Below, one piece after another: positions 9,274 to 30,183 of a stretch of DNA of 31,151 bases. The notes beneath the pieces were generated by a model. That model made no database searches. It saw only the letters and a program-made list of their open reading frames with translations, and was not told where the DNA came from. This DNA is from a virus. How positions within the stretch are numbered: the first letter of the stretch is position 1; each line of letters opens with the position of its first letter. Location of the stretch: IMG/VR virus record IMGVR_UViG_3300009703_001293, positions 1 to 31,151 of that record. One strand, given 5' to 3'. The position numbers were made by a program, and so were the translations under genes.

Positions 9274-9664
9274 CATCATCCTCCGAATATTTCAATGCTA
9301 TTAAATCAATACTATTAAGTTTGCACCATTCGATCTTATCCTCATCACGCGCTTTGGCTAGAAGAAAATCTCTCTTGGTGTTATGGAAGAAGGGGACGTG
9401 TTCATAATGTTGTCTCCCATGCACCTCAAATGCTTTCCGTATATTTGGAATAAAAAAATCTAAATACAATACGGATTTCTTATGCGCGGAGGTGCTGCCG
9501 GGAAGTTTTACTTCTTCCAATACTCTGTAACTGTGGTAAACTTCGTTTATCAAACGTCTAGCTCTAATGTGGTGCTTAGATCTTTTTCTTGAGTCACTAG
9601 CTCTCACATCGTACTTTGCAAGGTTTAGATTATACTCAATACCGTTTAAGCCTACTACTTTCAA
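9245..9664 (-). CDS. Small PD-(D/E)XK endonuclease-like protein (Vsr/DUF559-like fold)
   Basis: 139 residues from a TTG at 9664. An upstream in-frame TTG at 9700 lies deep inside the recA-like gene and lacks a ribosome site, whereas the 9664 TTG has AAGGAG 5 nt upstream and shares TTGA with the upstream stop. The core YLDFFIPNIRKAFEVHGRQHYE holds Asp69, Glu80 and the GxQHY tail, the pattern of Vsr/DUF559-type nucleases. His82 stands where many members have Asp or Lys, so the catalytic site is a variant. It is coupled directly to the UvsX/RecA gene, which suggests DNA repair, recombination or branched-DNA cleavage. Moderately sure of the fold, unsure of the substrate. Confidence 0.7.
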   Translation of the reverse strand: MKVVGLNGIEYNLNLAKYDVRASDSRKRSKHHIRARRLINEVYHSYRVLEEVKLPGSTSAHKKSVLYLDFFIPNIRKAFEVHGRQHYEHVPFFHNTKRDFLLAKARDEDKIEWCKLNSIDLIALKYSEDDDEWRNSIKG

Positions 9665-10764
9665 AATAACTCCTTGATCTTTGAATATATAAATTCGCAA
9701 ACCTTTGGGTTCTCGTTTAAAAACTCAGTGAGGTTGTTCACCCCCTGAAATTTAAAGAACCTCTCTCTGTCTTCTTCTTTTTCACCAACCTCGTTTTCCT
9801 TGAGTAATTTTGCAACTACTGGATCTTCAGGCTCGTCTACTGCGCATTGGATAGTATACCAAGCGCCAGCTGTTTTGATTATTCTAAACTCACAAGCTAT
9901 TTGCACAACTTCTTGCACTTCATCTAGTCCAATACCATACCTAATCCAGCTTTCTGCTGTAGAGTTGGGGATGCCTCCAGCGTTTGAGGTTTTGATGTTC
10001 CAGTTGGCTATCTGTCCAACATGCGGCCCAGTTTGCGCAGGGACTTGCCATTTACCACGATGGGTGATAATCATGTTTGTTCCAGCTTGATACTGTAACA
10101 TGTTACCACAGTCAGCCATTTTTAAAGGTGAGTATCTACTACCGCTGGTGTTTGCTATGTTATGAGTTATACAGATAATAATTGTCTTGTTTTTTGTTAC
10201 TGATCCGCCAATCCTTTTGAAAAACATTGACAGCAATCTTGGCAAAGCGTTTCTTACGCCAGTTCTAACCTCACCCTGAAGTTCATCTCTGGGAACCATG
10301 TTTGACATGGAATCAACTATGATTAGGCACTCAGGCTCGTTGTTGATGTAAAACTCTATGATGTTCAGAAAGTCTTCTGCTGACAATATCCTATCGTCGG
10401 TAGATTCTACAATAAGTATTTTTTCTGGGTCTAAGCCTTTAATTCCCTCAAAGTTTTGCTTGGCAAGCCTACCTTCGGTATTTGCATATATGACTTTTTT
10501 GCCTAGCGTTTGGCACTTAGCTGCAAAGTGCAGCGCTGTAGTTGTCTTACCACTCTTGGGATCTCCAGTCATGACTACACAACTGCCCTCCCTTAAGCCG
10601 CCACCTAGCGCGATGTCTAGAGCCGGAGAAATTCCTATCACTTGCAAGTTATTGAGACTACTAAGAACCTCGCTGCCAGTTCTTACAACGTCCCCATAGT
10701 TAGAGACCACACTGCTGCTAACAACATCGTTTTCAAATTTATTTGTCTTCTTTTTTCTTGGCAT
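9661..10764 (-). CDS. RecA/UvsX-like recombinase
   Basis: 367 residues. The Walker A motif GDPKSGKTT lies at 67-75, LIIVDSMSN at about 147-155 is the Walker B region, and CITHNIANTSGSRYSP resembles the L2 DNA-binding segment of RecA. A GGGLREGS segment before the P-loop is typical of RecA/UvsX. It should form filaments on single-stranded DNA and drive strand exchange and recombination-dependent replication with the nearby nucleases and SSB. It is longer at the C-terminus than a minimal RecA core, with a charged region. The start overlaps the upstream hypothetical gene by 26 nt. Confidence 0.88.
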   Translation of the reverse strand: MPRKKKTNKFENDVVSSSVVSNYGDVVRTGSEVLSSLNNLQVIGISPALDIALGGGLREGSCVVMTGDPKSGKTTTALHFAAKCQTLGKKVIYANTEGRLAKQNFEGIKGLDPEKILIVESTDDRILSAEDFLNIIEFYINNEPECLIIVDSMSNMVPRDELQGEVRTGVRNALPRLLSMFFKRIGGSVTKNKTIIICITHNIANTSGSRYSPLKMADCGNMLQYQAGTNMIITHRGKWQVPAQTGPHVGQIANWNIKTSNAGGIPNSTAESWIRYGIGLDEVQEVVQIACEFRIIKTAGAWYTIQCAVDEPEDPVVAKLLKENEVGEKEEDRERFFKFQGVNNLTEFLNENPKVCEFIYSKIKELF

Positions 10765-11194
10765 CTAAATCCCTCAACATTTGTAAATTTTTCTTCTTAC
10801 CGAAGGAAGACCGAGACCTAGTTTTGGCATCTTCCTTTACTTCAATAATAGTCATTTCAGCATCTTCTTGCTCAATAATTTTTTGATATTTAGCAAAGAC
10901 TTGCTCTATTTTTGGATACCGAAGCGAATAAACCCTTTTTAACTCGGGTGAATTGATTGCACGCACCATAGCTCTAGTGTCATATTTTTTAGCATATCTG
11001 TTTGCTAGTATGACTTGGTGCTGATAGGTCTTCTTCCATTTGTCTGTGTTCCAGAACTTATATGCCTGAGTGCCTTTATTATCTTTCTCAGCCATTCTGG
11101 TACACATTACTTCTGCCATGTATTGAGCACATGTGCAGTACTCCCCCGTAGAGGGGGATTTGTATTTACTTTTTTCATTTCTTTCTTTTGCCAT
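10739..11194 (-). CDS. Conserved hypothetical phage protein, basic
   Basis: 151 residues, rich in lysine and arginine. The N-terminal part has STGEYCTCAQYMAEVMC with three cysteines, then helices with FWNTDKWKKTYQHQV and ANRYAKKYD; the tail is charged. I have the impression of similar proteins in marine phages but know no function. It overlaps both neighbours (20 nt upstream, 26 nt downstream), and no good ribosome site is seen within 12 nt of the ATG, so it probably depends on translational coupling. Nucleic-acid binding is plausible from charge alone. Confidence 0.65.
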   Translation of the reverse strand: MAKERNEKSKYKSPSTGEYCTCAQYMAEVMCTRMAEKDNKGTQAYKFWNTDKWKKTYQHQVILANRYAKKYDTRAMVRAINSPELKRVYSLRYPKIEQVFAKYQKIIEQEDAEMTIIEVKEDAKTRSRSSFGKKKNLQMLRDLDAKKKEDK

Positions 11195-13717: not shown

Positions 13718-14797
13718 TTAAAGTTTCAATCCTCCGAAGTCCATATCCTCAAGATCGTTGGTACTTGCTCCAATCTTATAGGATGTGATTTCATGTTCCT
13801 GTGGTGCTACCTGAACGCCTTCGCTATTTATCCAAGGTTCTGTCCAGCCAGCGATTGGGTTTTTAAGACCAGAGTCGTATGGCAATTTGATTGCTTTCCT
13901 GCGAGTCATACAAAGCCAGTCTATATATTTGTGTAAAACTCTTTCGTTTAATCCTATAATAGACCCGTCCTTAAAGAGATAAGATGCCCATTTCTTTTCT
14001 TCAGATGCGGCACTTTCAAACATCTTAATAGCATCTTCTTCACATTCTTTAGCCGTCTGTACGAATCCTTCTGACTTTTCATCTCTTAAGATTTTAAGGA
14101 TCTGCTGCGTGTTGTGCAGATGTATAGCCTCGTCTCTCTTGATTAGCTTTACAATATCTGCGTTGCCAACCATCTTTTTGTTTTCGGCAAACGCAAACGC
14201 GCAAATAAAGGAGACGTAAAAGCGAACAGCTTCTAATATATTAATACTGATTAGCGTTAGATAGATCTGTTTTTTAACGTCGTCAATCTTCTTACTGTTA
14301 CTAAGTTTTTTTAGTTTGTCGTATTCTTTTACCGCCACATTAGCCCTAGCGACTATCTCTTTATCTGTGAGGCAGGAGTCTAGAACTTCGCTAGGATTTG
14401 GGTAAACATTCTTAATGATGTAAGTGTAGCTGTAGCTATGTATCTGCTCAAAAAATTGCCACACATTTAAACAGGCTTCTAACTCTGGATTAGATACATA
14501 TTCCTGAATAGTCGGAACACCCCTGCATATAACAGAGTCCATCATAGTTTGGTACTTTAGATTAGAAGTAAATATGAACTTCTCGTTTTCAGACATAACA
14601 GAGTTGTCTTTGAAGTCGTTTCTGTCTTTCTTAAGCTCAATCTCCTCTGGCCTCCAGAAAAACTCAAGCTGCTTCTTATACAGGTCAAAGAATACTGGGT
14701 ATTTAAATTTGTCATACCTCTGCAGGGACAAATCCTCACCTAAAAATAGAGGTTGCTTCAGAGTGTCAACATTCATTTTATTCAAAACGCTTTTCAT
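13718..14797 (-). CDS. nrdB: Ribonucleotide reductase class Ia, beta subunit
   Basis: 359 residues. The di-iron ligands can be placed by comparison with E. coli NrdB: Asp87 (MMDSV), Glu117 and His120 (FFEQIHSYSY), Glu189, Glu223 and His226 (RDEAIH). The radical tyrosine is Tyr124, four residues after His120. It is therefore a complete radical-generating subunit. The start forms a TAATG overlap with nrdA. The C-terminal tail (LEDMDFGGLKL) should dock on the alpha subunit. No glutaredoxin or thioredoxin gene is seen in the window, so the reductant probably comes from the host or from elsewhere in the genome. Confidence 0.95.
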   Translation of the reverse strand: MKSVLNKMNVDTLKQPLFLGEDLSLQRYDKFKYPVFFDLYKKQLEFFWRPEEIELKKDRNDFKDNSVMSENEKFIFTSNLKYQTMMDSVICRGVPTIQEYVSNPELEACLNVWQFFEQIHSYSYTYIIKNVYPNPSEVLDSCLTDKEIVARANVAVKEYDKLKKLSNSKKIDDVKKQIYLTLISINILEAVRFYVSFICAFAFAENKKMVGNADIVKLIKRDEAIHLHNTQQILKILRDEKSEGFVQTAKECEEDAIKMFESAASEEKKWASYLFKDGSIIGLNERVLHKYIDWLCMTRRKAIKLPYDSGLKNPIAGWTEPWINSEGVQVAPQEHEITSYKIGASTNDLEDMDFGGLKL

Positions 14798-17034
14798 TAT
14801 ATTGCGCAGGCTCCACCTTCACATACTGGTTCTTGTTCTAGTTTACCATCTCCGTCAGGCGTGTTACAATAATACAAGTTTTTTACGCCGTATTTGTAGG
14901 AGATAACGTTATCCTTGATTATATTACTAAGAGGTATCGAACCATCTTCGTAATGCTCGTAGTTGTAGTACAGGTTTGCGCTGATGCTCATATCAACAAA
15001 CTTCTGCAGCACAGCTACGATTTTTATTATAGCATTGTTATCTTGCATGTCAAATGCTAATGTGTAATATTTCCTACCTTTATGATAGTTCGGTACGACT
15101 TGTTTTAGCACACCGTTTTTTGCTTTTTTGTATGAAAGCAGTTTACGCACTGGCTCTATACCATTTGTGCTATTCTGTATAACTGAGCTGGACTCACACG
15201 GCATAATGGCAGATACTGTTGAATGTCTCAGTCCAAACTCTTTAATTCTAGCTCTAAGCCCTTCCCAGTCCATTGAATATTTAGGTTTAACAATCTCGTC
15301 TACAGTTTTTTTATACCAGTCTATTGGTAATTTACCGTTTGAGTATTTAGTTTCTGAAAACTTTTCGCAAGGGCCAAGCTCTTCAGCTAACTTGCAGGAA
15401 GTATTGAGAAGATGCCACTGTATCTTTTCCATTGTGTCGTGAATAAGTTTAGGAGCTGCCTTGTCGTCGTAACCCATCTTGTTTTTCGCCAGAAATCCAG
15501 CCAAGTTTGTTATCCCAATGCCGAGTGATCTTCTATTCTTAGTGAAGTTTTCTCCCGCTTTAACTGGGTAGTCTTGATAATCTATGACAGACTCTAGAGA
15601 TTCTACTGCATTTCTACAGGCTGTCTCAATGTCTTTATCTGAGTTCAGCTCACACAGGTTTATCGCAGACAGTATACAGATCCCTATCTCTCCGTCTTCG
15701 TCTCCTATATCACTAATTGGCTTTGTGGGATGTATGATTTCTTGACAAAGATTACTCATGTATACAGGCACGTCCCAAGAGCCGTGCTGGTTACATGTGT
15801 CAATGTTCATCGAGTAAATCCTACCAGTCTCAAGTCTTTCACGCGCAAAAACTTCGGCTAATTTTCTAGCGCTAACTTTTTTCTTCATGGTGATGCTTCT
15901 TGAGTTTTCGTACTTTACGTATAGCTCCTCAAACTTCTTGTTGTTGCCAAAAGATTCGTATAAGCCAGTAGCTTCGTGTGGACTAAATAATGTTATATCT
16001 TCGTTCTTGATTAGTCTATCGTAAAACAACTTGCAAAACTGAATTGAATAGTCTAGCTTTCTAACTCTATTATCGTCAGTGCCAGCGTTATTCTTTAGAA
16101 CTAAAACATCTTCAATTTCGTAGTGCCAAAAGGGTATATGGACGGTTGCCGAACCTCCTCTTAATCCATTTTGGGATGTTGCTTTAACAGATGACTCAAA
16201 AATCTTTAGGTAGGGAATGAGTCCGGTGTGAATAACTTCTCCACCTCTAATTGGAGAGTTGATAGGTCTAATCCTTCCTGCGTTAAGTCCAATTCCAGCC
16301 CTTCTAGCAGTATACTTTCCTACGGCATGTACGCTTGAAAAGATTCCGTCTAGGTCATCGTCCACGTCCACAAGAACGCATGAAGCGAACTGCTTAATAG
16401 TTGATCTAACGCCAGCCATGATTGGAGTAGGTAGATTGACTTTAAAAGTGGAATAAGCATCATACGCCTCCTTAACTCTAGCGATTTTATTTTTGTGATT
16501 GCCAAACAGACACAGTGCTATCATCATGTAAGCTATCTGCGGTGTTTCGTATATCTTGCCCGTTACTCTGTTTTTAATAAGATACTTGTCTACTAACTGC
16601 TGCAATCCAGAGTATGTAAACATGTCGTCTCTGTCGTGCTTGATATATTTTTCTAAACCTTCTACTTCTTCTTTACTCCAGTTGTCTATCATCTCATTGT
16701 CATAGATGCCGTTGTCACACATTATGCAGATGTGGTCATGCAAGTTTGGAGGAGTGCAAGATTTCCACACAACCTTGCGTAGGCTCATATTCAGCAGTCT
16801 AGCTGCTACATATTGATAGTTTGGCGCTGCCTCAGAAATTAGGTCGCTTGCGCTCTTAATTAGAATTTGATGTATTTCTTCTGTGGATATACCATCTCTC
16901 ATTGAGAGATTCATATTCATTTCTATGTCGGATTCGGATACTCCATTAATATCTCTAGTAGCCCATTCAACAACTTTATGTATTTTTTCAACGTCATAAT
17001 CGGCGGATTCGCCACTTCTTTTAACTACTTTCAT
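14797..17034 (-). CDS. nrdA: Ribonucleotide reductase class Ia, alpha subunit
   Basis: 745 residues. An N-terminal ATP-cone (KVVKRSGESADYDVEKIHKV) occupies about 1-90, so allosteric dATP control is likely kept. Catalytic residues align with E. coli NrdA: Cys219, Asn428, Cys430 and Glu432 in NLCQEI, Cys453 in GICILSAIN, Tyr721/Tyr722 for radical transfer, and the C-terminal shuttle pair Cys738 and Cys743 in VCEGGACAI. It reduces NDPs to dNDPs. AAGGAAG lies about 4 nt before the ATG. It is the first gene after the terminator at 17065-17118, so a promoter may lie close upstream or transcription may read through; I see no clear consensus. Confidence 0.96.
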   Translation of the reverse strand: MKVVKRSGESADYDVEKIHKVVEWATRDINGVSESDIEMNMNLSMRDGISTEEIHQILIKSASDLISEAAPNYQYVAARLLNMSLRKVVWKSCTPPNLHDHICIMCDNGIYDNEMIDNWSKEEVEGLEKYIKHDRDDMFTYSGLQQLVDKYLIKNRVTGKIYETPQIAYMMIALCLFGNHKNKIARVKEAYDAYSTFKVNLPTPIMAGVRSTIKQFASCVLVDVDDDLDGIFSSVHAVGKYTARRAGIGLNAGRIRPINSPIRGGEVIHTGLIPYLKIFESSVKATSQNGLRGGSATVHIPFWHYEIEDVLVLKNNAGTDDNRVRKLDYSIQFCKLFYDRLIKNEDITLFSPHEATGLYESFGNNKKFEELYVKYENSRSITMKKKVSARKLAEVFARERLETGRIYSMNIDTCNQHGSWDVPVYMSNLCQEIIHPTKPISDIGDEDGEIGICILSAINLCELNSDKDIETACRNAVESLESVIDYQDYPVKAGENFTKNRRSLGIGITNLAGFLAKNKMGYDDKAAPKLIHDTMEKIQWHLLNTSCKLAEELGPCEKFSETKYSNGKLPIDWYKKTVDEIVKPKYSMDWEGLRARIKEFGLRHSTVSAIMPCESSSVIQNSTNGIEPVRKLLSYKKAKNGVLKQVVPNYHKGRKYYTLAFDMQDNNAIIKIVAVLQKFVDMSISANLYYNYEHYEDGSIPLSNIIKDNVISYKYGVKNLYYCNTPDGDGKLEQEPVCEGGACAI

Positions 17035-21222: not shown

Positions 21223-22113
21223 CTACTGTATTTCTAACGAATATTCTGTTGGTGAATAAAGAGCTATCATACTGGGGTTCAAAAAAATCTTATGACCATC
21301 GTCCCGCATTAGCTTATGGATGTAAGAGTGTTCATTATTAACAGTTCCGTCTTCGTTTTCAGACGCGCCGTATCTATAATTGAGTAACTGTGGCTTATAA
21401 ATTCCTATGCCGTTAAAGTTTGAAAAGACTTCAACTGGCTCCTCGCCCCTGTCAAATTCGTACATGTTGACAACTTCGCTAAACAAAGGATTTTCGTTTC
21501 CGTGATCCCTGTAAGCCCAAGTGTCAAAGAATAATCTTTGGTAGGCTCCATAGATTTTATCTTGCCCTTTGTCTACCTCCACATGTCTATAAATAATTCC
21601 ATTGCCGGTCATCGCAGACCATTCAATATCTTGATAAGAGAGACTGTGCAGTATTCCGTCATAAGACCAGCCTCCATCTAAATCTATGTCTATGCAAATG
21701 ATGTAATCATATTTCTGCATATCTATGTGATCTAAACATTTGTTTCTTAGCGAACCCAAATACTCTGCCCTAGCAACATCTCTGGTTCTTTCAAATGCTT
21801 CCTGACCGTCTTCAAACTGTATCAGCTCTAGCCAGTCTTTCTCGTCTGCGTATTTTTTAATTAATTCAGATGTGTTGTCAGTTGAGTCATTTTCAAGTAG
21901 TAAGACATCGCAGTTCTTAAACAGGGAGGCTGTATGCTCAAGTCTAGCAATGCTGTGATGTATAATTGGCTCGATGTTTCTGCATATGCCAGTAATCATT
22001 ACAGATGAACTTCTGGCAACCTCAAAACCTTTTACTATTCTTGAGTAATATTTTTGAGGCTCATAAGGTGGGTATAAGGACTCTGGAAATCTTTTATAAA
22101 GGTAGCTTTTCAT
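21223..22113 (-). CDS. CAP59-like glycosyltransferase (GT-A-like fold)
   Basis: 296 residues. VMITGICRNIEPIIHHSI near 38-55, LLLENDSTDNTSELI near 71-85 and IICIDIDLDGG near 138-148 (acidic metal-binding DxD/DxDxD) give the layout of cryptococcal CAP59-type mannosyltransferases. RNKCLDHI just before the acidic motif is also typical. It probably transfers a sugar, possibly mannose, to a glycan or protein in the cytoplasm. GAGG lies 8 nt before the ATG and the gene overlaps the fusion gene upstream by 4 nt, so both belong to the same glycan module. Acceptor and donor cannot be read from sequence. Confidence 0.8.
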   Translation of the reverse strand: MKSYLYKRFPESLYPPYEPQKYYSRIVKGFEVARSSSVMITGICRNIEPIIHHSIARLEHTASLFKNCDVLLLENDSTDNTSELIKKYADEKDWLELIQFEDGQEAFERTRDVARAEYLGSLRNKCLDHIDMQKYDYIICIDIDLDGGWSYDGILHSLSYQDIEWSAMTGNGIIYRHVEVDKGQDKIYGAYQRLFFDTWAYRDHGNENPLFSEVVNMYEFDRGEEPVEVFSNFNGIGIYKPQLLNYRYGASENEDGTVNNEHSYIHKLMRDDGHKIFLNPSMIALYSPTEYSLEIQ

Positions 22114-23531
22114 TTTAGTAGCCTCATGTTGAACACATCTAGCACTGGCCTTTTCGACAGCCTGTTAATTTCTAACGCCTGCATTGCATCACTCTCAATG
22201 AATAGTCTTGCCCCTCTATCTTCCATGTACTTCAGAGCTTTCCAAGTTCCGAACCCTATTTGCTCTCTCTCTTCTCTGGTTTCTGCTGGCATCATGCACA
22301 ATTCCCCGTATTGCACGCCGTTCCTCTTTAACCATTGTACGGTTTGTTTTCTGTATCGCTCAAGTCTAGCTGTGACTATTTTTCTTACTTTGAACTTAGG
22401 TAGATAGAGTGGCTTTGCGTTAGCCAAGAACTCTGCATATCTTTTTTCGTCTGAATCCTCACATGGGCAATCTTCGCATATTACACCATCCATATCAAAT
22501 AAGAAATGCTCTGACACGATGTCTCTACCCACATTCCATTCAAAGGTGTGAAAGAACGTGTAAAATATTTCCTTGTATGTATCAAGAGCTTTGCTCTGGT
22601 CTTTACTGCAATATAAAGCACCAAATTTAATATCTTTAGAAACTAACTTCCTTGCGTTTTTGATTGTTGTTCCACTCCAAGATGTGTCATCAACAACTAA
22701 TATCCTATTCTTATTTTTAGCACTATGGTTTATTGGTCTTGAGTGTTTTAATCTAAAGAAGTCTTCAGTCCCGCTGACTAAATTTTCAAATGGCACATAG
22801 GGGATATTAAGATAGTGTGCTATTACACCCCCGATGAAAACTCCCGACCTCGGAAGCCCTGACACATGTGTAATACCTCTTAAATCTTCGCACCAATCTT
22901 TTATGTCTCTTACTGAGTCTGCATAAGATTTGAATACAACAGAGTCATCACTCAGTATATCGTCTGTGTCGTTGACGCTAAACAAAGCCTCGTATGTGCC
23001 TTCGCCTGTCACCATGTCAAGGTTGTCTGTAGAAGATGCGACCAAGTGTTTAAATTTACTTAGCTTAACAATAGAGAAGACATTATTCTTTGTCTCGTCC
23101 ATATATGGTCTTCCGACAACATAGATGTTATCAGAAATTTCAGATAGCTTGTTGAGAGTAGAAACCAATTCTCTCGCAGATGTAAAATGTTGCAACGAGA
23201 AGAAGCAGAAGATAATATCAATCTTCTCTGTTATTTCATCTAGGTCTTTGATAAAGTTCACGCCATTTACAAAATCATGATCTCTCATCTGTAAACATCT
23301 GTCTACGACATTTGGTAGATCGTATGCGTATACTTTTTTAGCTACAGATTTGAAGTATGGTAGGTTTCTACCAACCCCACACCCAAAGTCTAGCACTGAG
23401 TCAAAAGACCTGTTCACAAGAGTTGGTTTAGACACTGGTAGTGTTTCTAAGCTACCATGACCTGAGCAAAACAGGTTTATGTATGTAGCGTCATTTTTAA
23501 CTCTCTTTGCGATTTCATTCCAATTAACCAC
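22110..23531 (-). CDS. Three-domain fusion: SAM methyltransferase, phosphoribosyltransferase, HAD phosphatase
   Basis: 473 residues from the GTG at 23531 (GGAG 7 nt upstream; a TTG one codon earlier is also possible). Residues about 44-140 are a class I SAM-dependent methyltransferase: VLDFGCGVGRN is motif I and FCFFSLQHF a later strand. Residues about 205-330 are a type I phosphoribosyltransferase, with the PRPP loop ILVVDDTSWSGTT at 278-290. Residues about 343-474 are a HAD-type hydrolase, with FDMDGVI as motif I, VTAR as motif II and FIESDA near the end. No internal stop or frameshift is seen, so it appears to be one polypeptide. It may modify a sugar, nucleotide or glycan in concert with the adjacent glycosyltransferases; the substrate is unknown. 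Confidence 0.85.
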   Translation of the reverse strand: MVNWNEIAKRVKNDATYINLFCSGHGSLETLPVSKPTLVNRSFDSVLDFGCGVGRNLPYFKSVAKKVYAYDLPNVVDRCLQMRDHDFVNGVNFIKDLDEITEKIDIIFCFFSLQHFTSARELVSTLNKLSEISDNIYVVGRPYMDETKNNVFSIVKLSKFKHLVASSTDNLDMVTGEGTYEALFSVNDTDDILSDDSVVFKSYADSVRDIKDWCEDLRGITHVSGLPRSGVFIGGVIAHYLNIPYVPFENLVSGTEDFFRLKHSRPINHSAKNKNRILVVDDTSWSGTTIKNARKLVSKDIKFGALYCSKDQSKALDTYKEIFYTFFHTFEWNVGRDIVSEHFLFDMDGVICEDCPCEDSDEKRYAEFLANAKPLYLPKFKVRKIVTARLERYRKQTVQWLKRNGVQYGELCMMPAETREEREQIGFGTWKALKYMEDRGARLFIESDAMQALEINRLSKRPVLDVFNMRLLK

Positions 23532-23976
23532 CAATTTGCTCCAAAATAAATTGTTCTACAGATGTAATATCTTTTTTATTTAAATAATTAGACACGATAC
23601 TTGCAGCATCTCTCTTTGACCAACCCAAAGACATTAAAGCCTGAATACAATCATCATATAGATGGTGCTGTTTCGCACTCGGCTTCCTAACCTTTTTAGG
23701 TTTAGGTGCAGGTTGAATGACTGGTGGAGGTACAACTATAACTTCCTCTTCTGGTTCTGATTGGAACCAAGCGAAGGCTCCTGCGTCACCTGTCTCTTCG
23801 TAAGCGGCAAACGCCATAGCGTCGTTGTCAAATGACTCTTCATGTTCTTCGTAGTATACATATTCTACCTTCTTTGAGAATAGAGGTCTAATCATCAAAG
23901 TGTAAAGAATGGCACAAAACAATACTATGCCTGCCATCTCTGCTATCGCATTTTCAAATTCTGTTGCTGGAACCAT
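23524..23976 (-). CDS. Single-span membrane protein with C-terminal UBA/RuvA-III-like helical domain
   Basis: 150 residues. Residues about 14-33 (MAGIVLFCAILYTLMIRPLF) form one membrane helix. An acidic cytoplasmic linker and a proline-rich segment (VVPPPVIQPAPKPKK) follow. The last 45 residues (DDCIQALMSLGWSKRDAASIVSNYL) resemble the three-helix UBA/RuvA domain III fold, which binds partner proteins. The protein could tether a DNA-processing or glycan enzyme to the membrane. There is no clear ribosome site before the ATG at 23976. It overlaps the fusion gene by 8 nt, so the two may act together. Function unknown. Confidence 0.65.
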   Translation of the reverse strand: MVPATEFENAIAEMAGIVLFCAILYTLMIRPLFSKKVEYVYYEEHEESFDNDAMAFAAYEETGDAGAFAWFQSEPEEEVIVVPPPVIQPAPKPKKVRKPSAKQHHLYDDCIQALMSLGWSKRDAASIVSNYLNKKDITSVEQFILEQIGG

Positions 23977-24255: not shown

Positions 24256-24612
24256 CTAGAACGGCGCTTCCGCAGGGGTGCTAGAAGCAACATCTGTTGC
24301 ACCCTTCTTTTGGGGGCCGAGTGAAATCTCGTCTGCCATCACGCAGACTGAGTTTCTCGGGTTTCCATTCTTATCCTCATACTCATCCACCTTCACCTTA
24401 CCCTGAACGGATACTAACCGTCCTTTGACTAGGTGTTCTGTTAGGCTTTCGGCCATCTTGCCAAAGCACAGAACATTAAGGAAAAGAGTGTCATCATTTC
24501 TCCTATCGTTTACTGCTAGGCGGAACTTCGACATAGAGGTTCCCTTTTTTGTGGTGGTCTGTTCAGCGTTTGCTGTAAGGCGACCACACCCTACCCATAA
24601 ATTAACATTCAT
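24256..24612 (-). CDS. ssb: Single-stranded DNA-binding protein
   Basis: 118 residues. The bacterial-type OB fold is clear: VNLWVGCGRLTANAE, KFRLAVNDRR, LFLNVLCFGKMAESL and LVSVQGKVKVDEYEDKNG. The tail is short and ends EAPF; the PF tip of bacterial SSB is kept, but the acidic run that normally precedes it is almost gone, so partner binding may be altered. It protects single-stranded DNA during phage replication. GGAG lies 10 nt before the ATG. It is followed by a terminator, so it ends a transcription unit. Confidence 0.9.
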   Translation of the reverse strand: MNVNLWVGCGRLTANAEQTTTKKGTSMSKFRLAVNDRRNDDTLFLNVLCFGKMAESLTEHLVKGRLVSVQGKVKVDEYEDKNGNPRNSVCVMADEISLGPQKKGATDVASSTPAEAPF

Positions 24613-24954: not shown

Positions 24955-25143
24955 CTATTGATCTGTGGCTACTTCACCACTTTCAACATTATTAACAGAC
25001 TCAAGCTCTGCAACACCCTGTTGCAAATAGTCACTCAGCATCTGTATGTCTTTGTCTATCTGTTCTTTCTGACCCTCAAGGTCTTGAATTTGTTGCTGCA
25101 CGTTCCTCAAGTGCGCTTCGGCCATCTCTTGTATCTTAGCCAT
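24955..25143 (-). CDS. Small coiled-coil protein
   Basis: 62 residues: a single amphipathic helix rich in Gln, Glu and Leu (LRNVQQQIQDLEGQKEQIDKDIQMLSDYL), then an acidic tail. It is a typical small coiled-coil, perhaps a chaperone or adaptor. AGGAG lies 8 nt before the ATG. It is the first gene downstream of the structured RNA at 25172-25545, so that RNA could alternatively be its 5' leader. No family recognised. Confidence 0.6.
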   Translation of the reverse strand: MAKIQEMAEAHLRNVQQQIQDLEGQKEQIDKDIQMLSDYLQQGVAELESVNNVESGEVATDQ

Positions 25144-25171
25144 ATTGTAAACTCCTATTTGTTTAAAAAAA

Positions 25172-25545
25172 TATACTCTTCACAGGTTTTCGGGTCATAG
25201 TCACCCCACCTGCGGTTGTTCTTGGATAAGGGTTCCAGAATCTCTACTAAAACAAACTCTCGTTATGACCCACCAAGTTGCTCCTCAGCAGTGCTTGGTT
25301 TTTTAGTAGGTTTTCTGTACGGCAAGGATTGTGAATCCATCAGGGTCGGGACTTAAAAAGTCTTGCACGAGTTTGGTTACTCGTTGGCCTGAACCTTACA
25401 AACATTTGGTTTGATCTGGTATGTTTTTTTGGTCACTTGGTTATAGGTGAAAACCTGAGTCAATCTCTAATTGCTGGTTATCTTCGCAGATAAAACTCCG
25501 ATGCCCTTTTTCAGTCAACCAAAAACGCTAAACCGAACTTCCACA
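25172..25545 (-). ncRNA. Unidentified highly structured RNA with pseudoknot, about 370 nt
   Basis: This is the only long gap without a gene (25144-25588). It is full of local inverted repeats: 25478-25493 (GCGA tetraloop on the minus strand), 25445-25456, 25399-25413, 25367-25384, and a junction closed by 25322-25325/25363-25366 enclosing hairpins 25326-25338 and 25350-25362. A hairpin at 25273-25298 has an inner TGCT/AGCA stem. Two long-range stems, 25301-25309 with 25244-25252 (9 bp) and 25264-25271 with 25192-25199 (8 bp), interleave, which makes a pseudoknot. A promoter lies just upstream. It does not match tmRNA, RNase P RNA, 6S RNA or a group I intron core as I know them. It lies near the tRNA genes, as GOLLD and ROOL RNAs do in phages. 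The 3' end (A-run 25165-25171) is uncertain. Confidence 0.7.
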
Positions 25546-25551
25546 TACTAC

Positions 25552-25580
25552 ATTATAGCATAATAAGGCATCTGTCGCAA
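25552..25580 (-). promoter_or_regulatory. Sigma-70-type promoter for the structured RNA
   Basis: The minus strand has TTGCGA (25575-25580), exactly 17 nt, then a perfect TATAAT (25552-25557). It lies just after the stop at 25589 and points into the gene-free region, so transcription should start near 25545. Confidence 0.75.
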
Positions 25581-25588
25581 CTTATTTT

Positions 25589-26110
25589 TTATAATTTTTC
25601 CATTTTTGACAGAGGAATAATATAGTTAAGCGGAAGTCTAGCACCATACCGCTTTTTTATTTTAACTTTGTCAAACTGCTCTCTTGAAATCCTACCCAGA
25701 ACTTCTATCTCATTATTTTTTAAATTAAACCTAGTAAGCACATACAGCTCTGGCGGCTTACGTCTCTCGTACTCCTTTACAGTGATTTTCAGCTCAGGCT
25801 CACCGGCTCCCATGTATGTTATAGTTTTTACTTCGACACCTTCAAAGTCCTGCCCGTCATCCCTAACTGAATAGATGTTTTCATCTACCTTCTCTCCCGT
25901 TACAAGCGAGTAGCCAAGCTCTCCGATCACGCCCAAGAAGTGAGCCATGTATTGTTTATCGACCTTAAACTTCTCAGACATCACCCCTTTACTATCATTC
26001 ATAAATCTTTCGGTATCTTTATTTCTGAAAGAAGAATGTTTAGCATCATGCCTTTGCATAGCTAGACCAAGAGCATAGTTAAGCTGTTTTTTATTTAGTT
26101 TGAATTTCAT
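25589..26110 (-). CDS. PD-(D/E)XK nuclease-like protein
   Basis: 173 residues from the ATG at 26110 (GGAGG 7 nt upstream; a GTG nine codons earlier lies in leader element E2 and is rejected). HFLGVIGELGYSL with Glu64, then DDGQDFEGVEVKT with Asp88, Glu93 and Lys95, gives the E...D...ExK core of restriction-enzyme-like nucleases found alone in phages. The C-terminal half (KPPELYVLTRFNLKNNEIEVLGRIS) continues the alpha/beta fold. No methylase partner is present. It may degrade host DNA or process phage DNA. It is preceded by leader E2 and by the 51-residue membrane peptide gene. Confidence 0.72.
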   Translation of the reverse strand: MKFKLNKKQLNYALGLAMQRHDAKHSSFRNKDTERFMNDSKGVMSEKFKVDKQYMAHFLGVIGELGYSLVTGEKVDENIYSVRDDGQDFEGVEVKTITYMGAGEPELKITVKEYERRKPPELYVLTRFNLKNNEIEVLGRISREQFDKVKIKKRYGARLPLNYIIPLSKMEKL

Positions 26111-26181
26111 ATTAAATCCTCCAATTAACTGGCTCACCGGCTTTTCCTTGACTCGCCTGTTTTAGGCAAGACACCGCTAAG
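26111..26181 (-). promoter_or_regulatory. Intercistronic leader element E2
   Basis: This 71-nt gap carries a 7-bp hairpin, CTTGCCT / AGGCGAG with loop AAAAC, then GAGTCAAGGA, a 12-nt spacer, GCCAGTT and the GGAGG ribosome site. GCGAGTCAAGGA and GCCAGTT are identical to E1, while the hairpin arm differs from E1 in a pairing-preserving way, which favours a conserved RNA structure. Confidence 0.6.
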
Positions 26182-26337: not shown

Positions 26338-26360
26338 TTAGTATTCCTTACTATTTTAAG

Positions 26361-26434
26361 TAGACTTGGTAGGACTCGAACCCACGACAAAGGGATTATG
26401 AGTCCCCTGCTCTAACCAACTGAGCTACAAGTCC
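26361..26434 (-). tRNA. tRNA with CAT anticodon (Met, or Ile-CAT read after lysidine modification)
   Basis: 74 nt with all arms intact: acceptor GGACTTG / CAAGTCT (one G-U pair), D arm GCTC/GAGC, anticodon stem GGGGA / TCCCT with loop CTCATAA, T arm GTGGG-TTCGAGT-CCTAC, discriminator A. No CCA is encoded. The anticodon-arm sequence resembles tRNA-Ile2 more than initiator Met; the first pair is G-U, not the C-A mismatch of initiator tRNA. Confidence 0.93.
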
Positions 26435-26438
26435 GTAG

Positions 26439-26512
<74 letters not shown>

Positions 26513-26570
26513 ATGTAAAAAAGTTTTCGTAGGTATATATTGATAAGTACCGACGTTATCTTACTTACCA

Positions 26571-26598
26571 AGTATAACATAATTATTGTCGTTGTCAA
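26571..26598 (-). promoter_or_regulatory. Strong sigma-70-type promoter for tRNA-Asp and tRNA-CAT
   Basis: The minus strand has a perfect TTGACA (26593-26598), 16 nt, then TATACT (26571-26576), placed between tRNA-Glu and tRNA-Asp. It would start transcription about 50 nt before tRNA-Asp and could continue through the CAT tRNA, the membrane peptide and the nuclease-like gene. Confidence 0.75.
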
Positions 26599-26617
26599 GT
26601 AAAAACTTTAAAAAAAG

Positions 26618-26689
26618 TGACCTCTAGGGGAATCGAACCCCTATTGCCAGCGTGAGAAGCTGGAGTCCTAACCGTTAGACGAAGAGGCC
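26618..26689 (-). tRNA. tRNA-Glu (CTC)
   Basis: 72 nt: acceptor GGCCTCT / AGAGGTC, TTCGTC D-arm start typical of Glu, anticodon stem CCAGC / GCTGG with loop TTCTCAC (anticodon CTC), T arm AGGGG-TTCGATT-CCCCT, discriminator A. The CTC isoacceptor reads only GAG; bacteria normally use TTC. The 3' end is followed almost at once by seven T residues, which may make the tRNA its own terminator. Confidence 0.93.
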
Positions 26690-27617: not shown

Positions 27618-27741
27618 CTGTTATCCAAACATATATTAAAAAGATTATAATAGAAGGTAAAGCTGGGAATTGCATAGTAAGTAGAAGAGCGAGTACAAAT
27701 ATGTCACGGATTCCGAAAATAGGTATTTTACGCCCTTCCAT
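27571..27741 (-). CDS. Small two-helix membrane protein
   Basis: 56 residues from the ATG at 27741 (GAGG 6 nt upstream). Two hydrophobic segments (FVLALLLTMQFPALP and SIIIFLIYVWIT) joined by a tight turn, with basic ends (MEGRKIP and QSYRRCR). It overlaps the cupin gene upstream by 14 nt and the Lar-like gene downstream by 47 nt. The long overlap is unusual here, but hydrophobicity and RBS support it. Possible membrane-acting peptide; function unknown. Confidence 0.55.
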   Translation of the reverse strand: MEGRKIPIFGIRDIFVLALLLTMQFPALPSIIIFLIYVWITDEVFNKMLQSYRRCR

Positions 27742-28225
27742 AGTCATCCTCAATACGGATAATATCATTTTCCTGACACTCTCCGGTCTGAACTTCTACA
27801 AAAATAAGTGGACTATCTTGTTCATTTGTTATCCTATGTACTTCAAGTTTCCCTATGTTTACTGTGTCTCCCTCCTCTAAGAGCCACTGACTAGCCCCAA
27901 CTTGTACCATACCTTTTCCTTGAATAACTTTCCACCACTCACTCCTGTACTTATGCAGTTGCAAGCTAAGTCTGCTACTAGGATTAACAGTTATCTTTTT
28001 TATTTTAACATTCGGCTCATCTAAAAGAATCTTAAAATTTCCCCACTCCCTAGTCTCTTCAATATCATCTCCAGAGTGACCTGTTTCGGGTAGCAAGTAT
28101 ACTAAGTCTTCTTTATCTACTTCTTCAAGGATGGGGGATAGCCTACCACATTGCCGACAGTGAGTGTCTTCAAATCTTTCAGATACTATATATCCACAGC
28201 ACTGATATTTATATTGCTTCATCAT
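27728..28225 (-). CDS. Zinc-ribbon protein fused to a mannose-6-phosphate isomerase type II cupin
   Basis: 165 residues. Residues 9-26 form a zinc ribbon (CC...CRQC). Residues about 60-165 match the C-terminal cupin of ManC/AlgA-type bifunctional enzymes: WGNFKILLDE, IKKITVNPSSRLSLQLHKYRSE, the later EVHRITN, and the closing NDIIRIEDDYGR. Metal-site candidates are Gln89, His91, Glu96 and His130. The usual RxEHW is REWW-like here, so one histidine is replaced by Trp. In the family this domain interconverts fructose-6-P and mannose-6-P. No guanylyltransferase domain is attached. It lies near a phosphomannomutase gene, which supports a mannose pathway. Confidence 0.8.
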   Translation of the reverse strand: MMKQYKYQCCGYIVSERFEDTHCRQCGRLSPILEEVDKEDLVYLLPETGHSGDDIEETREWGNFKILLDEPNVKIKKITVNPSSRLSLQLHKYRSEWWKVIQGKGMVQVGASQWLLEEGDTVNIGKLEVHRITNEQDSPLIFVEVQTGECQENDIIRIEDDYGRA

Positions 28226-29192: not shown

Positions 29193-29915
29193 TTACAAAA
29201 CCTTGCCAGATCTTCCAGCGTTTAACAAAAACTGCTCAACTTCTAAATAACCTTTAACCCAAAACGAATGAAATATATCTAACTTACTGTATATCGAGTA
29301 GTCGTTTCCACCTTCTTGGCAACTGTCGCCATAAAAGAAAACCTCACCCTCCATATCATTTAACACTTGAGACTTATCTTTCCCTTTTGGATATACATCA
29401 ATACTTATTTGACCACCAATAGCAAATTCAATATCTGGGTAATCTTGAGACAATCTCTCTACAATAGATTCCCTTTCTCGCCATTGTTGATCCCATTCTT
29501 GGTAATATTTCCTCTGCTCCAACGTGCAGTCTCTACCTATTGTAGTCATATTCACCATGCCAACGCGCTCTTCTATATTGTTTTCGGCTGTTCCGTTCCA
29601 AACACTTTTTCTTATTTCATTTTTCATCGAGATTCTTAGAGAGTCACTCATTTTCCAGTCACTCTTCTTTACTAGCTCGCCGCCCACATAAAGTTCATTT
29701 CCACATGATTGGTAACTTCCGTCAACTAATTCCCAAAGCTCTAATCCAATTTGTTCTATTGTTTTATCTTTGTCTGACCCAGTAAGTAAGAACACTTTGT
29801 TATTATCTAGCTGCGCAAGCTCTACCCAGAGAGTAAAACGCTTTCTAAATTCAGGGTTGATGCAAGCTCTCGGCTCAGTCAGTGTCCCGTCCACATCAAA
29901 TATATAATTACTCAT
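29193..29915 (-). CDS. Phosphomannomutase, HAD type (eukaryotic PMM-like)
   Basis: 240 residues from the ATG at 29915; an ATG two codons earlier abuts the GGGA site and is less likely. FDVDGTLTEPR at 6-16 (nucleophile Asp7 and acid/base Asp9), LLTGSDKDK, GMVNMTTIGRDCTLEQR in the cap, IGGQISIDVYPKGKDKSQVL, and FYGDSCQEGGND follow the order of human PMM2. The family interconverts mannose-6-P and mannose-1-P, the step before GDP-mannose. Most bacteria use a different, unrelated PMM, so this is likely a transferred gene. It pairs logically with the cupin at 27728. Strong family call; substrate preference untested. Confidence 0.88.
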   Translation of the reverse strand: MSNYIFDVDGTLTEPRACINPEFRKRFTLWVELAQLDNNKVFLLTGSDKDKTIEQIGLELWELVDGSYQSCGNELYVGGELVKKSDWKMSDSLRISMKNEIRKSVWNGTAENNIEERVGMVNMTTIGRDCTLEQRKYYQEWDQQWRERESIVERLSQDYPDIEFAIGGQISIDVYPKGKDKSQVLNDMEGEVFFYGDSCQEGGNDYSIYSKLDIFHSFWVKGYLEVEQFLLNAGRSGKVL

Positions 29916-30183
29916 AGTCATTCCCGTCTACATAAATTGGAGTAAACTCCCCGACATATGCGTTGAAGGTATTGTAGTCTAACCACTCAAGTGCCTCATC
30001 ATAATCAACCGCTAATTCTTTCGCGCACACTTCCACCATCTTAGGGACAGAATATACCACCCTTCCTGCATCACCGCCACAAGCAATGCCAATAATACAA
30101 GAATCGTAACCATTGGCAAGCAAAGAATCAGGGCAATAATCTCTGAGATAGTCCAAGAGTGCTTTCTGCTTTTCATTTTCCAT
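29908..30183 (-). CDS. Conserved hypothetical phage protein
   Basis: 91 residues. Contains CIIGIACGGDAGRVVYSVPKMVEVCAKELAVDYDEALEWLDYNTFNAYVGEFTPIYV, an alpha/beta protein of the type often found in tailed-phage early regions. AAGGG lies only 2 to 3 nt before the ATG, so translation may depend on coupling with the upstream small gene, which it overlaps by 11 nt. It overlaps PMM by 8 nt. Function unknown. Confidence 0.65.
   Translation of the reverse strand: MENEKQKALLDYLRDYCPDSLLANGYDSCIIGIACGGDAGRVVYSVPKMVEVCAKELAVDYDEALEWLDYNTFNAYVGEFTPIYVDGNDYE

Follow-up and report, generated by a model that had tools for sequence, protein, structure and literature searches.

A gap without genes in an uncultured virus

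The DNA analyzed here (the window) comprises the 31,151 bases of one record from an uncultured virus. Between two minus-strand genes we identified a gap of 445 nt (25144-25588) in which no credible ORF was present. The upstream gene encodes a conserved 172-aa protein without a family, which had no PHROG or Pfam match and whose relatives were detected in 19 viral loci. The next gene is a 62-aa coiled-coil-like ORF with tblastn matches in about 80 related loci, in nearly all of which it lies directly upstream of the gene for single-strand DNA-binding protein (SSB). Rfam 15 at gathering thresholds identified three tRNAs in the window and nothing else. The features of the locus are as follows:

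26360-26689, minus strand: tRNA-Met, tRNA-Asp and tRNA-Glu
25589-26107, minus strand: upstream gene, 172-aa protein (the ORF is 182 aa, 25589-26137)
25552-25580, minus strand: promoter of the RNA, TTGCGA-17-(TG.)TATAAT
25150-25545, minus strand: noncoding RNA, both ends being approximate and inferred; supported by homologues and a covariance model
25165-25171, minus strand: U-tract 3' of the RNA
24955-25143, minus strand: next gene, 62-aa coiled-coil-like ORF, which occurs with or without the RNA upstream
24256-24612, minus strand: SSB (phrog_44, E 4e-27)

The promoter scored 10/12 in a consensus scan and has a TG before the -10 element (extended -10); TATAAT was also present at the corresponding place in those family A homologues (see below) that were read. 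As the promoter takes up the first ~35 nt of the gap, the predicted transcript is ~385-400 nt long. The position of the U-tract is kept in most family A loci, judging from the alignment and the individual sequences. A sequence-only reading of this DNA had claimed a 445-nt region without genes, a promoter, two crossing long-range stems and closeness to tRNAs. All of these held: gap, promoter and stems lie where that reading had put them, both stems are perfect and interleaved, and tRNAs are close by here and in many relatives. It had named no strand; the minus strand was established in the present work.

Homologues in viral contigs

About 28 viral genomes or genome fragments have retained this RNA, which often adjoins tRNA genes. 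Relatives of the 172-aa protein and of SSB led to contigs containing the intergenic RNA at 86% to about 66% nucleotide identity, and pattern scans added L123, L129/L131, L130 and L183. These sequences form family A, which comprises 18 contigs including the window; identity of the homologues ranges from 86% down to ~53% in the core, and pairwise core identity from 0.53 to 0.96. A covariance model of the family A core (R1) matched the window, a member of its training set, with an E-value of 2e-36. R1 was built without L183 and nevertheless recovered it with 91 bits (E 1e-21).

A conserved fold with a pseudoknot

Folding of the single sequence did not reveal significant extra stability on either strand (minus strand, z = -1.52, 9 of 100 shuffles being as good; plus strand, z = -0.61), and the minimum free energy structure missed the real core. 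Comparison of homologues was far more informative. In a MAFFT alignment of 16 family A sequences, 43 pairs in 8 helices were defined, with 89.0% of cells paired as compared to 73.1% in shuffled alignments, none of which (0/500) matched the observed value. Thirty of the 43 pairs had changed on both sides, and sliding the structure by 1-3 columns reduced pairing to 27-51%. The shuffles ignore the tree, and the sequences are related. Since the arms of one long-range stem (H11) align poorly, this stem was tested without an alignment, by swapping partners between sequences: H11 arms paired with their own partner at -12.8 kcal/mol and with partners from other sequences at -6.7 kcal/mol (0 of 20000 permutations). 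Such swap tests supported H11, H12, H9 and H2. The structural elements, all on the minus strand, are listed below:

25457-25498, minus strand: H2, hairpin domain whose outer pairs are 25498-25495/25460-25457; -4.8 kcal/mol with the own partner vs -2.6 kcal/mol in the swap test, 4/20000
25399-25413, minus strand: H4, hairpin CAAAC/GTTTG (GTCCTA/TAGGAC elsewhere); 6/6 pairs changed on both sides
25398-25391 with 25235-25228, minus strand: H12, long-range stem that closes the core; 6/8 pairs changed on both sides, swap test 3/20000
25367-25384, minus strand: H5, hairpin ACGAG-TAACCAAA-CTCGT with a conserved loop; 98.6% of cells paired, 4/5 pairs covary
25350-25362, minus strand: H6, variable hairpin GACT..AGTC, missing from some relatives; read from alignments, not formally counted
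25326-25338, minus strand: H7, hairpin GGA-TTCACAA-TCC, followed by invariant TGCCG; 98.2% paired, 3/4 pairs covary
25309-25301 with 25252-25244, minus strand: H11, long-range stem of 9 bp; swap test and covariation
25272-25299, minus strand: H8, hairpin with the motif AAGC..T-stem-GNNG-stem-AAC; 97.9-100% paired
25271-25264 with 25199-25192, minus strand: H9, pseudoknot stem of 8 bp that crosses H11 and H12; 4/20000 (14 sequences)
25255-25264, minus strand: H10, hairpin AAC-GAGA-GTT (GNRA loop in most); 3/3 pairs changed on both sides, 73% paired (MAFFT alignment)

Comparison thus shows a core in which H12 encloses H5, H6, H7 and H11, H11 in turn encloses H8 and H10, and H9 ties the loop of H11 to the 3' end. 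H9 is a pseudoknot because only its 5' strand is enclosed by H11 and H12, and the 3' strand lies beyond the two. Its variants within family A include GGGUCAU/AUGACCC, GGGUCAAA/UUUGACCC, GGGUGAAA/UUUCACCC and GAGUCAU/AUGACUC.

A diverged family with the same core topology

Two contigs, L062 and L063, gave no good sequence match to family A, yet had in the same place an RNA that combined H11 and H9 stems, the latter ACCUGUGAAG/CUUCACAGGU, with the H8 motif. A motif scan and an R1 search of whole contigs enlarged this group to ten contigs, designated family B, in which the RNA has diverged and the core topology is that of family A: H12, H5, H11, H8 and H9 are kept in the same order and nesting. 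In the family B alignment, 94.1% of cells were paired vs 80.1% in shuffles (0/500), and 17 of 37 pairs had changed on both sides, including 4/6 pairs of H11. The pseudoknot stem covaries in this family as well (ACCUACGAAG/CUUCGUAGGU and others). The architecture of the class (H12 around H5 and H11; H11 around H8 and the 5' strand of H9) is present in both families. The sequence-only reading had proposed a search for homologues in viral metagenomes and a covariation test of the stems now called H11 and H9; homologues were found and both stems covary.

Paired columns also bear on the strand. G-U cells outnumbered A-C cells in family A (35 vs 6) and in family B (15 vs 7). The promoter, the flanking genes and this excess place the RNA on the minus strand. 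An alternative is that the gap only appears structured and in fact works at the level of DNA, for instance as an origin or packaging site; it is noncoding and near replication genes. This explanation can be all but dismissed, because an RNA made from one strand, unlike a DNA duplex, should show an excess of G-U over A-C, and also because a promoter occurs at the matching place and the element moves between contexts. We conclude that the gap encodes a conserved, pseudoknotted RNA of a single strand, which is present in two related families of viral contigs and is unmatched in Rfam 15.

L121 and L132 might represent a third group (family C). By eye, both have H8 inside an H11-like stem, and the H8 motif is common to families A, B and C. 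An H9-like match of 8 bp was found by automatic search in L132 only; that of L121 (about 5-6 bp) is weak and was read by eye. The motif sites are at 9615-9638 (minus strand) in L121 and 10743-10766 (plus strand) in L132, with GGAAAACGGA in common on the 3' side, and an HNH-like ORF follows the RNA candidate in L121.

Outside these contigs, blastn with five members detected no homologue in cultured phages, L166 matched cultured phages only at tRNA-Leu and unrelated sequence, and R1 had no match in Mosig EXVC030M or SynMITS9220M01. In GTDB genomes, a first pattern gave 0 matches and the H8 motif 21, about the chance level by our estimate, none of them with a convincing H9 stem. Eight contigs from the first pattern scan were unsupported by nhmmer, and L181, L182, L184 and L185-L189, from later scans, looked like coding sequence or chance matches; all were rejected. 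H8-like hairpins accompanied by a terminator and by a flanking stem that covaries were observed in Bacteroidales MAGs (L138, L147, L149, L150, L157), near contig ends and close to transposase-like sequence. They probably belong to a multi-copy element; no pseudoknot was found at these loci, and their relation to the RNA is unclear. Isolate contig 2910170622 carries two identical H8-like hairpins (L128 and L133), each inside a GATGCC/GGCATC stem and within a 2-kb exact repeat.

Two mutually exclusive pairings

Four short strands of the core can pair in two exclusive ways, a-c plus b-d or a-b plus c-d, where a is the GACCC before H7, b and d are the H9 strands and c is the GGGGU before d:

25201-25347, minus strand: strands a (GACCC, 25347-25343) and c (GGTGGGGTGA, 25210-25201), which together with those of H9 allow two alternative pairings

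Own pairs beat swapped pairs for all four combinations (a-c, 191 of 20000 permutations; a-b, 22; c-d, 55; b-d, 4), and the same permutation test found own pairs no better than swapped ones for a-d and b-c. All four strands have changed together in L183, and all four differ in L123/L130. Segments were chosen manually, the sequences are related to each other, and the four results draw on common strands, which makes these results non-independent. That the core may switch between two states is no more than a suggestion at this point.

Genomic setting and transcription

The RNA lies upstream of the operon of the 62-aa gene and SSB in most loci of family A and also in L062/L063. Elsewhere the setting differs. 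For example, the RNA of L129/L131 is found in a tRNA-rich region and is followed by another gene, that of L167 is downstream of tRNAs, and those of L165, L166 and L179 are downstream of tRNAs and a permuted tmRNA. Differing downstream genes were found in L129/L131, L126, L134, L136, L165 and L166. In several relatives, a promoter separates the RNA from the next gene (12/12 in L010 and L062; 11/12 in L013, together with an intrinsic terminator of 7 bp and T-rich sequence after it), and the RNA can therefore be its own transcription unit. On the other hand, many family A loci, including the window, have no second promoter between the RNA and the 62-aa gene, and in the window, L123 and L130 the RNA ends at most a few tens of bases upstream of the ribosome-binding site; a leader role and transcription reading through thus remain possible.

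The corresponding alternative is that the RNA, as 5' UTR of the 62-aa/SSB operon, serves as a cis-regulatory leader or attenuator whose alternative pairings control read-through or translation. It is favored by this proximity, by the order kept with the operon in most family A loci and by the preservation of both exclusive pairings. However, the second promoters, the terminator of L013, the inconstant downstream gene, and a size and fold beyond those of usual leaders make it unlikely. The data support, in the absence of any transcript evidence, independent transcription of an RNA whose gene context varies and is often within or next to tRNA/tmRNA islands.

Such islands raise the possibility of a degenerate or derived phage tmRNA or RNase P RNA, which would have a similar length; related phages often carry a permuted tmRNA in the same neighborhood. 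Neither ARAGORN nor Rfam detected a tmRNA in the window, and no RNase P model matched. Moreover, the RNA and a tmRNA coexist in L062/L063, L165, L166, L179 and the contig of L064, and hence the RNA is not a tmRNA. This candidate identity was refuted, and the rival as a whole is virtually ruled out.

Permuted tmRNAs were observed in L062 (2174-2488), L063, L068, L071, L083, L087, L096, L165, L166 and L179, usually beside tRNAs, with predicted tags such as ADESLALAA, GVENYAMAA and VEENFALAA. In L129 (5863-5936, minus strand), a plastid-ycf2 5' UTR model scored barely above its cut-off on the strand opposite a tRNA, clearly an artefact of that model.

Comparison with known RNA classes

Covariance models of Rfam 15 gave nothing meaningful in the gap at E-values up to 10, and only chance matches in homologues at a lax threshold (E up to 5); no Rfam family matched A, B or C. 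The sequence-only reading, which had suggested a possible new class, had proposed this very search, and its outcome supports the suggestion. As each of the proposed tests that could be run came out in its favor, the interpretation is supported. The open-access PMC literature contained no description of the RNA that we could find; an unpublished or paywalled account is not excluded.

The closest parallels are GOLLD and ROOL. GOLLD is large, pseudoknotted, encoded by phages or prophages, often near tRNA islands, and of unknown function (PMC12286853). Like GOLLD, the RNA described here is phage-encoded, pseudoknotted and near tRNA genes (26360-26689 in the window), but GOLLD exceeds 800 nt in many members and forms an RNA-only nanocage, whereas our RNA occupies about 385 nt of a 445-nt gap and there is no evidence of a cage. 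ROOL is likewise phage-encoded and near tRNA islands, has multiple pseudoknots and is of unknown function (PMC12286853); its solved member is about 660 nt, as compared to about 385 nt, and the RNA here, although also found in phages near tRNAs, has one well supported pseudoknot stem (H9), which crosses two stems. The GOLLD covariance model matched neither the window (E up to 10) nor the homologues (E up to 5), and the ROOL model matched neither set. By every test that was run the RNA appears unrelated to the two, in a comparable setting, as far as can be inferred from sequence alone.

Other known RNAs differ more. Permuted tmRNA (RF04321) shares the same phages and RNA islands with our RNA, but is a separate gene; tmRNA has a tRNA-like domain and a tag reading frame, neither of which was found here. 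OLE is a large, elaborately folded bacterial RNA (PMC12286853), similar in these respects but different in genomic setting. The C and D RNAs of T4 are stable phage RNAs of unknown role that lie beside tRNAs, and are much shorter. RNase P RNA, group I introns, OLE and known ribozymes gave no Rfam covariance-model match. The order of the crossing stems resembles that of a group I intron. Group I introns have conserved P7 and J8/7 sequences, which were not seen here, and this candidate was rejected in the absence of a model match. A related proposal is a ribozyme whose doubly crossed core cleaves or processes itself or the adjoining tRNA transcripts. The pseudoknotted core, its many invariant unpaired bases and its place beside tRNAs are consistent with this idea. 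However, no Rfam ribozyme matched, no flanking cleavage signature was seen and no biochemical data exist, and we regard it as very unlikely.

A probable new class of phage RNA

Since neither the GOLLD nor the ROOL covariance model matches, a new class remains the best reading. The RNA most likely represents a class of structured RNA encoded by phages that has not been described before, is stable, has its own promoter and acts in trans during infection, although neither transcript nor function has been tested. In the proposed scheme, the promoter would yield a stable RNA of about 385 nt, and the folded RNA would act in trans during infection, alone or with a protein. The setting may point to translation or host-takeover functions, as suspected for GOLLD and ROOL. 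Several points weigh against this reading: in family A the RNA is strongly syntenic with the SSB operon, neither a protein partner nor a biochemical function suggests itself, and transcript data are lacking. As a class the RNA looks new; its workings may yet resemble those of GOLLD and ROOL.

A bolder reading, which is merely possible, is a new superfamily of phage RNAs with a four-strand switch core, in which GACCC(a)-GGGGU(c) and GGGUC(b)-GACCC(d) exchange with a-b and c-d, and which might act in trans in tRNA/tmRNA islands, possibly self-assembling or related to translation. New classes of large structured RNA are rare, and the known phage examples, GOLLD and ROOL, build RNA-only cages of unknown use. 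With fewer than 400 nt and a well supported fold, the present RNA is small enough for probing, cryo-EM and genetics, and its recurrence in large phages with tRNAs and tmRNA offers a direct way into what structured RNAs do for phages.

Other genes of the window

We also noted several genes elsewhere in the window. Together with glycosyltransferases, CAP59-like ones among them, a eukaryotic-type phosphomannomutase (29193-29921, minus strand) and a mannose-6-phosphate isomerase C-terminal domain (27728-28225, minus strand) make up a sugar-nucleotide set in a phage. The ribonucleotide reductase (14797-17034, minus strand) is closest to those of Pelagibacter phage Mosig and cyanophages (56% identity), and the SSB is of bacterial type. 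Another example involved an unusual fusion: a 474-aa protein (22110-23534, minus strand) in which a methyltransferase domain is followed by weak phosphoribosyltransferase and polynucleotide-kinase matches.
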